From Leptotrichia sp. oral taxon 223 (GTDB lineage Bacteria; Fusobacteriota; Fusobacteriia; Fusobacteriales; Leptotrichiaceae), in NCBI RefSeq assembly GCF_013394795.1, contig NZ_JABXYU010000001.1, positions 868,001 to 932,000 of the forward strand: a stretch of 64,000 nucleotides of DNA, read 5' to 3'. Positions within the stretch are counted from its first letter, which is position 1; each line of letters begins with the position of its first letter. A program made the position numbers and the translations under genes. This document shows, in pieces, positions 33,314-40,654 of this stretch. The notes beneath the pieces were generated by a model. That model saw only the letters and a program-made list of their open reading frames with translations, was not told the origin of the DNA and did no database searches.

Positions 33314-33343
33314 AAAAAAATAAGGCTGTCAAAAAACAACCTT
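33314..33343 (-). terminator. Rho-independent terminator after the 33.4-kb secreted-protein gene
   Basis: Minus strand: AAGGTTGT and ACAGCCTT form an 8-bp stem (one G-T) around TTTTTG, then ATTTTTTTG. Confidence 0.8.
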
Positions 33344-33351
33344 TTTTAATT

Positions 33352-33864
33352 TCAATTATATAATCTTTCATTTAATTTATCTGGAAAATCATAAGTATTG
33401 ACATAACCTGCTCCATCTACATACCAATTACCATCTATATTTACCATTTTTACATAAGTATTGTGAACATTTCGAGATCTCAACAATACATATCCTGTAT
33501 CTTCATCATAATATATTGCTTTATACCCACCATTTGTATCTGGAGCTTGTCCAGTTAATACCCAGTCGGCATCCATAGGTACTCCTAAATAATCCTCTGG
33601 TATTCCTTCACTCCAATCAGCATTATTATTATATTCAACCAACTGTCCATAAATATCTCTAAAATCTTCCGTAATATTTTGATTTTTCAAAACCCAATTA
33701 TCTTTATTTTTATTTTCACTTCTAACAGCATAGCCATTAATAAAATTTTCTGCCACTTTTTGTGGTGTATTACTATTACTTGACACTTTCTTTTTTGTAG
33801 CACTATAACTTACTACATTTATTGTTAAAATTAATGTAATTATCATTAAAATTAGTTTTTTCAT
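33352..33864 (-). CDS. secreted protein of unknown function
   Basis: A 170-residue protein with a clear signal peptide (1 to about 20, ending SYSATKKK) and a periplasmic domain with KVAENFINGYAVR near the mature N-terminus and ITEDFRDIYGQLVEYN, VDGNWYVDGAGYVNTYDFP later. The pattern of a helix followed by a beta-sheet with a final 'GxWYVD' is reminiscent of DUF3828/NTF2-like secreted domains, but I cannot assign it firmly. Its signal peptide is nearly the same as that of the chimeric amidase gene at 35.3 kb. Last gene of a three-gene minus-strand set with the LprI-like gene and the small exported protein. Confidence 0.7.
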   Translation of the reverse strand: MKKLILMIITLILTINVVSYSATKKKVSSNSNTPQKVAENFINGYAVRSENKNKDNWVLKNQNITEDFRDIYGQLVEYNNNADWSEGIPEDYLGVPMDADWVLTGQAPDTNGGYKAIYYDEDTGYVLLRSRNVHNTYVKMVNIDGNWYVDGAGYVNTYDFPDKLNERLYN

Positions 33865-33917: not shown

Positions 33918-34529
33918 TTAATTATGTAAACTATCATACATTCTTGCAAGTTCTATAGTCCGAGCTTTTACCATATCTATTTTTGTTCCAATTTTTCTTA
34001 ACTGAACTATACTTCCACATCCATTTTCTCCTTCTTCTCCACATTCTTCATATATTATTTTTTTGGTTTTATTAACCATTCCTTTTAACCAAGCTCTTTC
34101 CTCGTTTCGTAATTTTGTTTTTTGACTGTCTGGCAACTCTGACATAAGAAGTTTATAAACTTTATTCAATTCTTTATCCCATGCTTGATACGCCGCTTCA
34201 GCTTGATAATACATTTGACTATCAGAACCATCGAATCCTGTATCTTGAACTGAACTCATTCTATTCATCAATTCAGCTTCATAATTTGTCCTTTTTTTAG
34301 CAATTACTGATGCAGATGTTTCTTGTGAAGTTGTTACTTGTGCCATTTGTTGCTGTTCATTTTGATTTTTTATCATTTCCTGTTTTGTCTTTTCTTGCTC
34401 TAGTTTCACCTTTGCCTGCAGTTCTTGAGTTTTTATGTAAGAGCTGTACATCAAAAAAGCTCCTCCTAGAAAAAATGTAAATATTACAACACTTGCTATA
34501 ATAACTATTATAGTAATTTTTTTATTCAT
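33918..34529 (-). CDS. LprI/DUF1311-family protein with N-terminal membrane anchor
   Basis: A 203-residue protein: a membrane anchor (about 6-27), a Gln/Glu/Lys-rich coiled linker (about 32-70), and a DUF1311 (lysozyme-inhibitor LprI-type) domain with AYQAWDKELNKVYKLLMSEL and KTKLRNEERAWLKG, which is the family signature. Two cysteine-containing loops (ECGEEGENGCGS) follow. It should sit on the outer face of the inner membrane, or in the periplasm, and may protect against lysozyme-like enzymes. A paralogue of the same layout is at 35649-36266. Confidence 0.82.
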   Translation of the reverse strand: MNKKITIIVIIASVVIFTFFLGGAFLMYSSYIKTQELQAKVKLEQEKTKQEMIKNQNEQQQMAQVTTSQETSASVIAKKRTNYEAELMNRMSSVQDTGFDGSDSQMYYQAEAAYQAWDKELNKVYKLLMSELPDSQKTKLRNEERAWLKGMVNKTKKIIYEECGEEGENGCGSIVQLRKIGTKIDMVKARTIELARMYDSLHN

Positions 34530-34573: not shown

Positions 34574-34822
34574 TTAGTCATATAAATTATATAAATATGT
34601 TGCTCCTGTAAAATATAAATTTCTGTAACCATTTCCTTCAAAATACACTCTGTAAACACTTCCATATGAAATGTCTTCAAAAACATAATTACTAAAATTA
34701 AACCTTTTCCCTGATTGTAAACTTATGCAAGTATCATCTTCTATTACTTTACATTCTTCAACATATCTTGAAAAACCAAGAACACCAAATAATAACAACA
34801 TTCCTAATATTAGTTTTTTCAT
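34574..34822 (-). CDS. small exported protein (RYVEEC family), paralogue of 40.2-kb gene
   Basis: An 82-residue protein with signal peptide MKKLILGMLLLFGVLGFSRY and a mature domain of about 60 residues with two cysteines (CKVIEDDTC) and the conserved SGKRFNFSNY, VYRVYFEGNGYRNLYFTG. The gene at 40172-40408 encodes a close relative. I do not recognise a family. The promoter region about 140 bp upstream carries a G9 tract next to the -10 box. Confidence 0.7.
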   Translation of the reverse strand: MKKLILGMLLLFGVLGFSRYVEECKVIEDDTCISLQSGKRFNFSNYVFEDISYGSVYRVYFEGNGYRNLYFTGATYLYNLYD

Positions 34823-34939: not shown

Positions 34940-35020
34940 CAATATATGAAAACTAAGCCTTTTATATTATACCCCCCCCCGTTTGATTTTAATTTCAAAA
35001 ACATTAAATAAAAATTAATT
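34940..35020 (-). promoter_or_regulatory. promoter module P1 with G9 tract abutting -10
   Basis: Minus strand: TTGAAA (34993-34998), 21 bp including nine G (34972-34980), then TATAAT (34966-34971) and AAAAGGCTTAGTTTT. The same module, without the G run, occurs at 36490-36560 (GGAGAGGGTATACT) and 40520-40590 (AGCAGGGTATAAT). The conserved G-rich edge, TATAAT and CTTAGTTT mark it as a shared promoter. Confidence 0.65.
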
Positions 35021-35172
35021 TAAAAAGAAAATCAATGTTTTTTTACATTTTTTCATATATTTTAAAACAAAATTCTAAATAAAATCACATTTTATCATAA
35101 CTTTAAGTATCTTTTAAAATAAAAATACCTTAAATCTAAAGTCAAATCTTATATTTTCTAATTATTTTTCTC

Positions 35173-35210
35173 AAAAAAAAGACTATTTTAGCCTAATCAC
35201 TAAAACAGTC
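35173..35210 (-). terminator. Rho-independent terminator after the chimeric amidase gene
   Basis: Minus strand: GACTGTTTTAG and CTAAAATAGTC form an 11-bp stem (one G-T), followed by TTTTTTTT. It is 62 bp past the stop codon at 35272. Confidence 0.85.
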
Positions 35211-35271
35211 CTTATCTTTACATATTATTAACTTTAATTTTTTTCTCTTATAAAATTCAGAATTTTTTATT

Positions 35272-35648: not shown

Positions 35649-36266
35649 TTAATTACCATGCAATTCATCATACATCTTAGCAAGTTCTATTGTCCGAGCT
35701 TTTACCATATCCAGTTTTGTTCCAATTTCAATTAATGTAGCCAATGTTCCACATGCCATTCGTGTTCCATTTTCATCTAATCCGCAAGAATCATCTAATT
35801 CTCTTTCCACTGTATCAATCATTTTTTTCAACCAAGCTCTTTCCTCATTTTGTAATCTTGTTTTTTGACTGGCTGGCAACTCTGACATAAAAAGCCTATA
35901 AATTTTATTTAATTCCTTATCCCAAGCTTTATATGCTCGGTTTGCCTGTGCGCCCATTTCTCCATTAGTCCCATCAAAACCTATATCCTGAACTGAACTC
36001 ATTCTATCCATCAATTCAGCCTCATAATTTGTTCTTTTTCTAGCAGCCGCTGATGTTGAGGTTTTCTGTAAAGTTGTTACTTGTGCCATTTGCTGCTGTT
36101 CATTTTGATTTTTTATCATTTCCTGTTTTGTCTTTTCTTGCTCCAACTTTACTTTTGTCTGTAATTCCTGTGTTTTTATACCAGAACTATATGCCAAAAA
36201 AGCCCCTCCTAGAAAAAATACAAATATTGCAATACAAACTAAAGTTATTGCTTTTTTTCTATCCAT
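35649..36266 (-). CDS. LprI/DUF1311-family protein, second copy
   Basis: A 205-residue paralogue of the protein at 33918-34529, sharing the membrane anchor, the KTQELQTKVKLEQEKTKQEM linker and the domain phrases AYKAWDKELNKIYRLFMSEL and KTRLQNEERAWLKK. The C-terminal cysteine loop differs (DDSCGLDENGTRMACG), so the two may have distinct partners. It sits in the duplicated segment upstream of the chimeric amidase gene, with promoter module P2 about 230 bp upstream. Confidence 0.82.
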   Translation of the reverse strand: MDRKKAITLVCIAIFVFFLGGAFLAYSSGIKTQELQTKVKLEQEKTKQEMIKNQNEQQQMAQVTTLQKTSTSAAARKRTNYEAELMDRMSSVQDIGFDGTNGEMGAQANRAYKAWDKELNKIYRLFMSELPASQKTRLQNEERAWLKKMIDTVERELDDSCGLDENGTRMACGTLATLIEIGTKLDMVKARTIELAKMYDELHGN

Positions 36267-37094
36267 ATTTTCTTTCCTTTCTACTTTCCACTATCTTTAA
36301 AATAAACTTCCATTTATCCAAATTAATCTTGGATTATCTGTACTTTCTTTCCACAGTAATAATTTTTTCTTAATTCAATTTCTCCTTTATAAATTTCATC
36401 ATTTTTTCCAATCAAAATATTTATTATATTTAATTTTTAGATTCATTTTTACCAAAAAATCAAAAAAAAATATTTTTCAAAATTTTGAACAAAAAAACTA
36501 AGCCTTTTATATTATATAGTATACCCTCTCCATGTTTGATTTTGGTTTCAATATAATTAAATAAAAATTGAATTATTATTATGCTTTTTTTATTTTTTGA
36601 AACAAAATTCTAGATAAAGTCATATTTTTTTATAATTTTAAATATCCTTTAGACTAAAAAAATCTTATACTAAACTCCATTTAAATAACGAATTTATTAC
36701 AAACTTTTCTAGCAAAGGATAAAAACCTAATATTTTCAAATAATTAAAATATAATTTTTACTTTTTAAACAGAGTCTAGTATAAACTAATCTGTCAGAGC
36801 ATTTTTTTGTGCTGACAAAACTTTTTGAGCATAACGAGTTTTTTGTCAGTGCATAAAAATGTCATAGACTAGCCATAGGTTATTGCGTAGCAATCTTGCC
36901 ACAATTTTAATTATTAGGACAAACCTTTACTGCAAGATAAGGTTTTGCGACAATGAGCAATCCTACAAAAATAAAAAAGAAAAAAGTCGAATGATTATGA
37001 AATAGCTATTAAGTAACCCTGTTATAAAAATTTATTCCTATTTTCAAAAGGGGTTAGTATTAACTTATAAAATCACATCCTAACTAATTTTTCT
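36267..37094. other. 828-bp intergenic region: promoter P2 and structured repeat
   Basis: Holds promoter module P2 (36490-36560), a stretch to about 36700 that resembles 35000-35140 (evidence of segmental duplication), and structured repeat copy 2 (36771-36909). Beyond about 36910 to 37090 I see no gene or clear signal. Confidence 0.5.
36771..36909 (+). repeat. structured intergenic repeat, copy 2
   Basis: Its right end, CCATAGGTTATTGCGTAGCA plus ATCTTGCCACAATTTTA at 36873-36909, matches copy 1 at 25276-25311. A 9-bp hairpin, CTGACAAAA (36812-36820) with TTTTGTCAG (36841-36849), lies in the otherwise different middle. Same orientation as copy 1. Confidence 0.6.
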
Positions 37095-39336: not shown

Positions 39337-40023
39337 TTATCTTTCCCTAAAATATTTTTCAATCCCGTTTACAATTCCTTTTACCATCACATTTTGAAAA
39401 TCAGAAGAAGCCATTTTTCTATCTTCTTCAGGATTTGTCATGAATCCCATTTCTAGCAATGTATTAGTTACTGTTGACCAGTTTGTTCCTGTCAAATCAT
39501 CTCTATAGGAAACTCCTCTGCTTTTAAATCCTGTTGCTTTTGTGTATTCTGATAAAACTGCTCTTGAAAATCTGTCGCTTGATTTCTGCACTTTTTTTGT
39601 ATGTGGATTATTAGGTGATGATGTGAGTACACTTGCTCCTCTTGTGCTGCTTCCTGCCGCATCTGCATGCAATCTTATATAAACCGAGCATCCTGCCTTA
39701 TTTGTCATCAATGCTCTTTCCTTGTTGCTTATATTTACATTATTCGTTTCTCTTACCATAAATACCGAGTACCCTTTAGCTTTCAAGGCATCCCTCAATT
39801 TCAATCCTACTTCCAGAGTCAGCTGGTATTCTGTCTTTTTCGTAGCAACTCCTTTTGTCCCGTAAGCCACTTTGGGTTTTCTCTTTTTTGAACCAGGCGC
39901 TATTTCTTCTGTCTGCATATTCCCTTTCGCCTGATGCCCCGGATCAATGCACACTTTTTCAGCCGCATTCATCAATCCTGCTATACTGCTTAATAAAATT
40001 GCCGCTTTAAATAACAGTTTCAT
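39337..40023 (-). CDS. N-acetylmuramoyl-L-alanine amidase (Amidase_3)
   Basis: A 228-residue cell-wall hydrolase that should cut the bond between MurNAc and the L-Ala of the stem peptide. A signal peptide (1 to about 20, ending LMNAAEK) sends it to the periplasm. Zinc ligands of the family are visible: His in CIDPGHQ (about 25-31), Glu in TKKTEYQLTLEVG, His in VYIRLHADA, and the catalytic Glu in NTLLEMGFMTNPEED. The domain is complete, with no separate wall-binding module. A C-terminal copy of it is found in the chimeric pseudogene at 35.3 kb. It lies in the third of the related secreted-protein operons. Confidence 0.92.
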   Translation of the reverse strand: MKLLFKAAILLSSIAGLMNAAEKVCIDPGHQAKGNMQTEEIAPGSKKRKPKVAYGTKGVATKKTEYQLTLEVGLKLRDALKAKGYSVFMVRETNNVNISNKERALMTNKAGCSVYIRLHADAAGSSTRGASVLTSSPNNPHTKKVQKSSDRFSRAVLSEYTKATGFKSRGVSYRDDLTGTNWSTVTNTLLEMGFMTNPEEDRKMASSDFQNVMVKGIVNGIEKYFRER

Positions 40024-40171: not shown

Positions 40172-40408
40172 TTAATAAAGGTAAGATGATCCTGTGAAGT
40201 ATAGATTTCTGTATCCATTCCCTTCAAAGTATACTCTATAGACATCTCCAATTCTAAATCCTGAAAATGGGTATCCTCTAAAATTAAATCTTTTTCCAGA
40301 TTCAAGGCTCACGCAAGTATCCCCCGATACTATTCTGCAACGTTCCACATATCTTGAAAATCCAAGTACACCAAATAATAAAAATATTCCTAATATCAAT
40401 TTTTTCAT
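40172..40408 (-). CDS. small exported protein (RYVEEC family)
   Basis: A 78-residue protein with signal peptide MKKLILGIFLLFGVLGFSRY and a mature part with two cysteines (CRIVSGDTC) and SGKRFNFRGY, VYRVYFEGNGYRNLYFTG. About two-thirds of residues match the paralogue at 34574-34822. It is followed by the amidase gene after about 150 bp and preceded by promoter module P3 (40520-40590). Confidence 0.7.
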   Translation of the reverse strand: MKKLILGIFLLFGVLGFSRYVERCRIVSGDTCVSLESGKRFNFRGYPFSGFRIGDVYRVYFEGNGYRNLYFTGSSYLY

Positions 40409-40654
40409 AATTAATCACTCCTCTATAAGTTTTTTTGAAATGCAAAATTGAGATGCTTAAATCTATTTTATGATTGACTTTTGCCAAACATTCCAATCAT
40501 AAAATTTTATCAAAATTTTCGATAAACGAAAACTAAGTTATTATAAATTATACCCTGCTATTATTTGATTTTCTTTTAAATTAAATTAAATAAAGTTTAA
40601 GCAAAAAATGATATTTAAGTATTCTTAAAGTTTTAATAGGACAACCATAATTCA

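Follow-up and report, generated by a model that had tools for sequence, protein, structure and literature searches.

A nine-guanine run against the -10 box of a Leptotrichia promoter as a probable length-variable spacer with counterparts across the Leptotrichiaceae

Can the length of a guanine run that adjoins a -10 box set the expression of the genes behind it? The question is raised by a minus-strand homopolymer of nine guanines (G9, 34972..34980) in the window, the 64,000-nucleotide stretch of the Leptotrichia sp. oral taxon 223 genome analysed here. The run is followed on its 3′ side, without a gap, by the -10 box TATAAT (34966..34971, minus strand). A sequence-only reading of this locus had set out minus-strand TTGAAA (34993..34998), a 21-bp spacer ending in G9 (34972-34992) and TATAAT, and these elements were found exactly as described. 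The same reading had called nine G remarkable in so AT-rich a genome; indeed, this is the sole G-run of at least eight in 2.58 Mb, and the genome holds four G-runs of at least seven in total.

The G9 promoter heads a unit of three co-directional genes that stand between two intrinsic terminators, all on the minus strand. The upstream terminator (35178..35213, terminator prediction) insulates the unit and the other (33322..33343) closes it. The first gene (34574..34822) encodes an 82-aa exported protein and the third (33352..33864) a 170-aa exported protein, both with a signal-peptide-like start and without a known family, while the second (33918..34529) encodes a 203-aa LprI-domain protein (PF07007, E 3.3e-12). 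The small exported protein and the LprI-like gene had already been recognised downstream of the run, and the third gene is added here; judged by the signal-peptide-like starts, the unit behind G9 contains genes of the surface or exported type. Because the upstream terminator lies at 35213-35178 and the first gene starts at 34822, a promoter is expected between 35178 and 34822, and the TATAAT after G9 is the sole exact -10 consensus in this interval. Transcription would start at approximately 34958. We regard the G9 site as a genuine poly-G spacer promoter that probably functions.

Related promoters with a long G-run were found in three other Leptotrichia genomes: G004 (G8, with LprI downstream), G005 (G8, with a 170-aa gene homologue and hrcA behind it, like the window) and G007 (G9 followed by TACAAT, with an LprI-like protein downstream, so called from similarity to the LprI protein of the window and not from a domain scan). 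While homopolymers are error-prone, the occurrence of G8-G9 at the same place in these three genomes makes it extremely improbable that the exact length G9 is an artefact of sequencing or assembly, and a miscount by one or two bases would still leave a long run.

The same comparison bears on the upstream half of the promoter. TTGAAA, which agrees with the consensus TTGACA at five of six positions, had been taken as the -35. The hexamer at this offset is TCGAAA in G004 and ATAAAA in both G005 and G007; since these three related G-run promoters lack TTGAAA, its assignment as the -35 was rejected as unproven, and the -35 at the window locus is left unsettled. A switch acting through TTGAAA at its 21-bp distance, which would be ON at about G5, appears unlikely for the same reason, and also because, with few exceptions, TTGACA stands just 6-9 nt away from the run in Streptobacillus and in a pair of poly-G promoters from G008 and G010. 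TTAAAA (34987..34992, minus strand; 15-bp spacer with G9) occupies the same position relative to the run as TTGACA in the G008/G010 pair and is an alternative, weak candidate for the -35. A conserved AAATCAAAC block (34981..34989, minus strand), defined by promoter comparison, adjoins the G-run upstream, and AAATCAAA(C/T) is found in most promoters compared, whether the G-run is present or absent. Farther upstream, an AT-rich block (34999..35035, minus strand) is conserved in sequence with G004 and could act as an UP element.

We consider it likely that G9 supplies the variable length in a promoter of the sigma-70 type, that slippage steps the expression of the three-gene unit, and that this promoter is one of a family-wide set. 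In such a model, slipped-strand mispairing within a population would add G's to the tract or remove them, and a change in G number would shift the -10 box, in distance and in rotation, relative to the contacts upstream of it; these may be the conserved AAATCAAA block, a weak -35 or both. Owing to the altered spacing and rotation, expression of the unit encoding the 82-aa exported, LprI and 170-aa exported proteins would differ from cell to cell, stepping between levels. The genome encodes a MutS domain, so that any slippage would happen with mismatch repair possibly intact, which may slow it. The earlier proposal of a phase-variable promoter is thereby kept in respect of a slippage-prone G-run spacer at the -10 box, with lengths that differ among relatives, but not in respect of TTGAAA as the -35. 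Action through a G-quadruplex was dismissed on general grounds, as a single G-run cannot form an intramolecular quadruplex.

Among the points against the switch, the -35 at this locus is weak and unsettled, unlike that of Streptobacillus, and two paralogous promoters in the window lack a long G-run. The first of these (36511..36545, minus strand; GGAGAGGG-TATACT-ATATAAT) precedes a second LprI gene (35649-36266), and the other (40547..40573, minus strand; GCAGGG-TATAAT) precedes the gene for a 78-aa exported protein (40172-40408). The sequence-only reading had described both as the same promoter with other letters in place of the run; the sister promoters do exist, but the former has an extra -10-like TATACT and the latter lacks TTGAAA. 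A 23-bp block that includes TATAAT (34949-34971) is identical at 36494-36516 in the first paralogous promoter (family D14). Adjoining the second LprI gene is a 114-aa amidase_3 fragment (PF01520, 35272-35616), which looks like a shortened copy of the amidase encoded at 39337-40023.

In addition to these two at 36.5 kb and 40.5 kb, G011 and G012 also have promoters of this type that lack a long run. Their existence raises the alternative that the G-run is a fixed functional element, either an extended GGG before TATAAT or a regulator site, whose length is no switch. GGG without a long run in the two window sisters and in one G011 promoter (GAGAGGG, GCAGGG, GGTGGG) would fit such an element, as would the identical G6 of G001 and G007. 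However, a fixed element would not be expected to range from G6 to G14 among flank-matched promoters, and same-type promoters in G011 and G012 have no G triplet, which makes this alternative rather improbable. Two further candidates were discarded. ATCAAAC...TATAAT was rejected as a genome-wide regulon, since in many genomes it was about as frequent as its reversed-pattern control and its sites were mostly unrelated, which leaves the block by itself without value as a signature, and scattered matches to positions 170-216 of the promoter query were set aside as just a ribosome-binding site and the start of a signal peptide.

Is the position of the run more than chance would give? The TTGAAA-to-TATAAT pair alone is within chance, with four observed in the window against an expectation of 1.8, and with four also reached in 11 of 100 shuffles. 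The G8 pattern is expected 0.26 times in the window, and its two matches are two registers of the single G9 run. The position of the run is beyond chance. All 70 G-runs of at least seven in 13 Leptotrichia genomes were read, and runs of at least eight abut TATAAT (nine) or TACAAT (one) in 10 of 16 cases, a fraction that becomes 8 of 11 for runs of at least nine. By comparison, 2 of the 54 G7 runs in these genomes stand directly before a -10 box, and runs of three to four G stand directly before TATAAT in 11 of 2306 cases among the fetched Leptotrichia loci, a count which, if anything, is raised by its inclusion of loci fetched for carrying the motif. On these counts, chance was rejected as the origin of the run's position. 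A reversed G7TATAAT control gave no match in the 13 Leptotrichia genomes, and the poly-C equivalent, C7TATAAT, gave none in the 33 genomes of the family. The looser pattern G6-N(0-2)-TATAAT is present in 11 of the 13 Leptotrichia genomes, some of its matches being other kinds of site, such as GGGGGGATATAAT before CCCC in G006, G008 and G009.

Run lengths differ between related promoters of sibling species. Across 13 promoter pairs from different genomes whose flanks agree by 79% or more, within-genome pairs excluded and those of the trio L314/L326/L343 not being independent of one another, the G number differs in ten and is the same in three; with one genome per species, the comparison is one between sibling species. 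Most of the differences are of one G, which between draft assemblies could be sequencing error, while two pairs (G14/G11 and G9/G6) differ by three. The G9/G6 pair consists of the flank-matched promoters G009:1159606 and G012:1537684. In the other, G008:2017870 (G14) and G010:C5:57126 (G11) share the layout TTGACA-AAATA(C/T)-Gn-TATAAT with spacers of 20 and 17, and these promoters (L092, L080) precede short peptides that start MKI.ELNE.ELMTIDGG, which we take to resemble double-glycine leaders. The combination of poly-G promoter and leader peptide could represent a phase-variable bacteriocin. Two other poly-G promoters, G009:785830 (G11) and G004:C5:1086391 (G9), lie upstream of genes for 365- and 394-aa proteins with similar starts. 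At G009:1260020 (L150), a G10 run lies within a reading frame of approximately 228 aa and is possibly a coding-sequence contingency locus.

The arrangement extends to other members of the family. G7TATAAT is present in 16 of 98 genomes of the phylum, 14 among the 33 of the Leptotrichiaceae and 2 among the 65 outside it, and the reversed pattern gave one match across all 98. In the four genomes of the genus that contains Streptobacillus moniliformis (g11), G7+TATAAT sites number 19, 19, 11 and 2. Exact TTGACA is present in 49 of the 50 promoters listed for these genomes, and 48 of the 49 have the layout TTGACA-(6 to 9 nt)-Gn-TATAAT. Among the 49 TTGACA promoters, no significant compensation was seen between the G number and the remaining spacer (Spearman -0.17, p 0.24), which counts against the switch. 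One of the 51 sites, G095:C92:36293, was left out of the g11 list because it matches its S. moniliformis counterpart exactly in both context and run length (G10); it was counted as a 'same' pair in the length comparison.

In S. moniliformis itself (G094), the bacterium of rat-bite fever, 39 of the 40 runs of at least eight G were read (G094:C1:1637639 being left out), and 35 of the 39 lie at most 22 nt after TTGAC and are followed by a -10-like sequence; in a control segment, TTGAC was found in 2 of 39. Exact TATAAT follows 19 of the 35 runs. Total spacers range from 15 to 22, with 19 the commonest (15 of 35), in a count that admitted TATACT, TACAAT and other -10-like sequences, picked after the contexts had been viewed. 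By a simple text classification with informal family names, the first long reading frames behind the 35 promoters comprise 11 with YadA-like repeats, nine of a GPRYR exported family, four autotransporter-like, three of a FadA-sized family, three of an AEYYV family and five unclassified. Pfam analysis of ten of the downstream proteins identified YadA domains (head, stalk or anchor) in three and an autotransporter domain in one, with no family in six. The poly-G promoter loci of this species are L305-L323 and L392-L411. On contig C1 of G094, the 22 G8+ runs below 630 kb are without exception on the plus strand and the 18 above 900 kb without exception on the minus strand, so that every run points along the apparent leading strand.

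These distributions bear on a further alternative, in which the G-run would be a neutral homopolymer and expression would be insensitive to its length. Drift in length is the default behaviour of homopolymers. It selects neither position nor gene class, and the explanation is therefore disfavoured by the 10 of 16 genus runs and the 35 of 39 S. moniliformis runs that abut a -10 or -10-like sequence, and by the placement of the S. moniliformis sites mostly before surface or exported proteins; we judge it very unlikely. Phase variation by poly-G spacer length, the reading we prefer, has good support as a class and probably applies at the window locus, to judge by its sequence.

Phase variation through poly-G in promoter spacers is textbook knowledge in Neisseria and Treponema. 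As described in the part of the source available to us, porA of Neisseria meningitidis has poly-G between its -10 and -35, the length of which sets the expression level, in work that tested length variants and antibody escape (PMC3639595). The window promoter resembles porA in having poly-G between promoter boxes, there before an outer-membrane protein gene whose expression follows the length; it differs in that this fusobacterial locus has a weak -35 and is known from sequence alone, whereas the porA length variants were tested. According to the available text of a second source, tp0126 of Treponema pallidum has poly-G between -35 and -10 and is transcribed best at a 17-nt distance (PMC7864442). 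The layout before an exported protein is the same, and tp0126 offers a direct model for how length could act; its optimum of 17 contrasts with the commonest spacer of 19 in S. moniliformis, and the -35 of the Leptotrichia locus is not consensus. For tprE/G/J of the same species, that text places the poly-G within the promoter, with eight or fewer G's permissive (PMC7864442). There too, poly-G length gates transcription of surface proteins, but the run is described as lying within the promoter and is not placed between boxes, whereas the window run abuts the -10 box upstream.

A literature search, with subscription papers mostly outside it, found no report of poly-G spacer phase variation in Leptotrichia or Streptobacillus. 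In the accessible text of three Streptobacillus papers, 'phase variant' refers to L-forms (PMC4529157, PMC11609424, PMC3035246), and, by a term search, the names Fusobacteria, Streptobacillus and Leptotrichia are all absent from the text of a 2025 phase-variation review (PMC11868660). While the kind of switch is known, its family-wide scale in the Leptotrichiaceae appears unreported. On balance, we favour a contingency system of the form TTGACA-Nx-Gn-(-10) across this family, in which approximately 35 S. moniliformis promoters, most of them standing before genes for YadA-like adhesins, autotransporters or exported paralogues, would each switch on their own and so give a population a combinatorial surface. 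Leptotrichia would hold a reduced set of one to three per genome where present, which has also come to stand before an LprI unit and a double-glycine-leader peptide, and poly-G spacers may prefer 18-19 bp over 17. If this is true, one switch readable from sequence would set the surface of both an oral commensal genus and the agent of rat-bite fever, surface-protein expression could be scored from genome reads alone, and dozens of natural variants could show how sigma-70 promoters respond to spacer length.

Similar arrangements were observed beyond the family. Among the GTDB-wide matches listed, 44 of 119 G8+TATAAT sites from many phyla have TTGACA at most 22 nt upstream, against none in the control segment; this set (L162-L280) is without the Streptobacillus record L230 and three sites that had fewer than 80 bases upstream or were otherwise excluded. 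The spacers of these 44 listed sites cluster at 16 and at 18-19, with 17 in two of the 44. Poly-G spacer promoters may be widespread across phyla. Also among the matches listed, G8+TATAAT occurs on four contigs of the uncultured Bacilli bin Lapin-001 bin74 (L179, L206, L226, L261), which is perhaps another lineage rich in poly-G switches.
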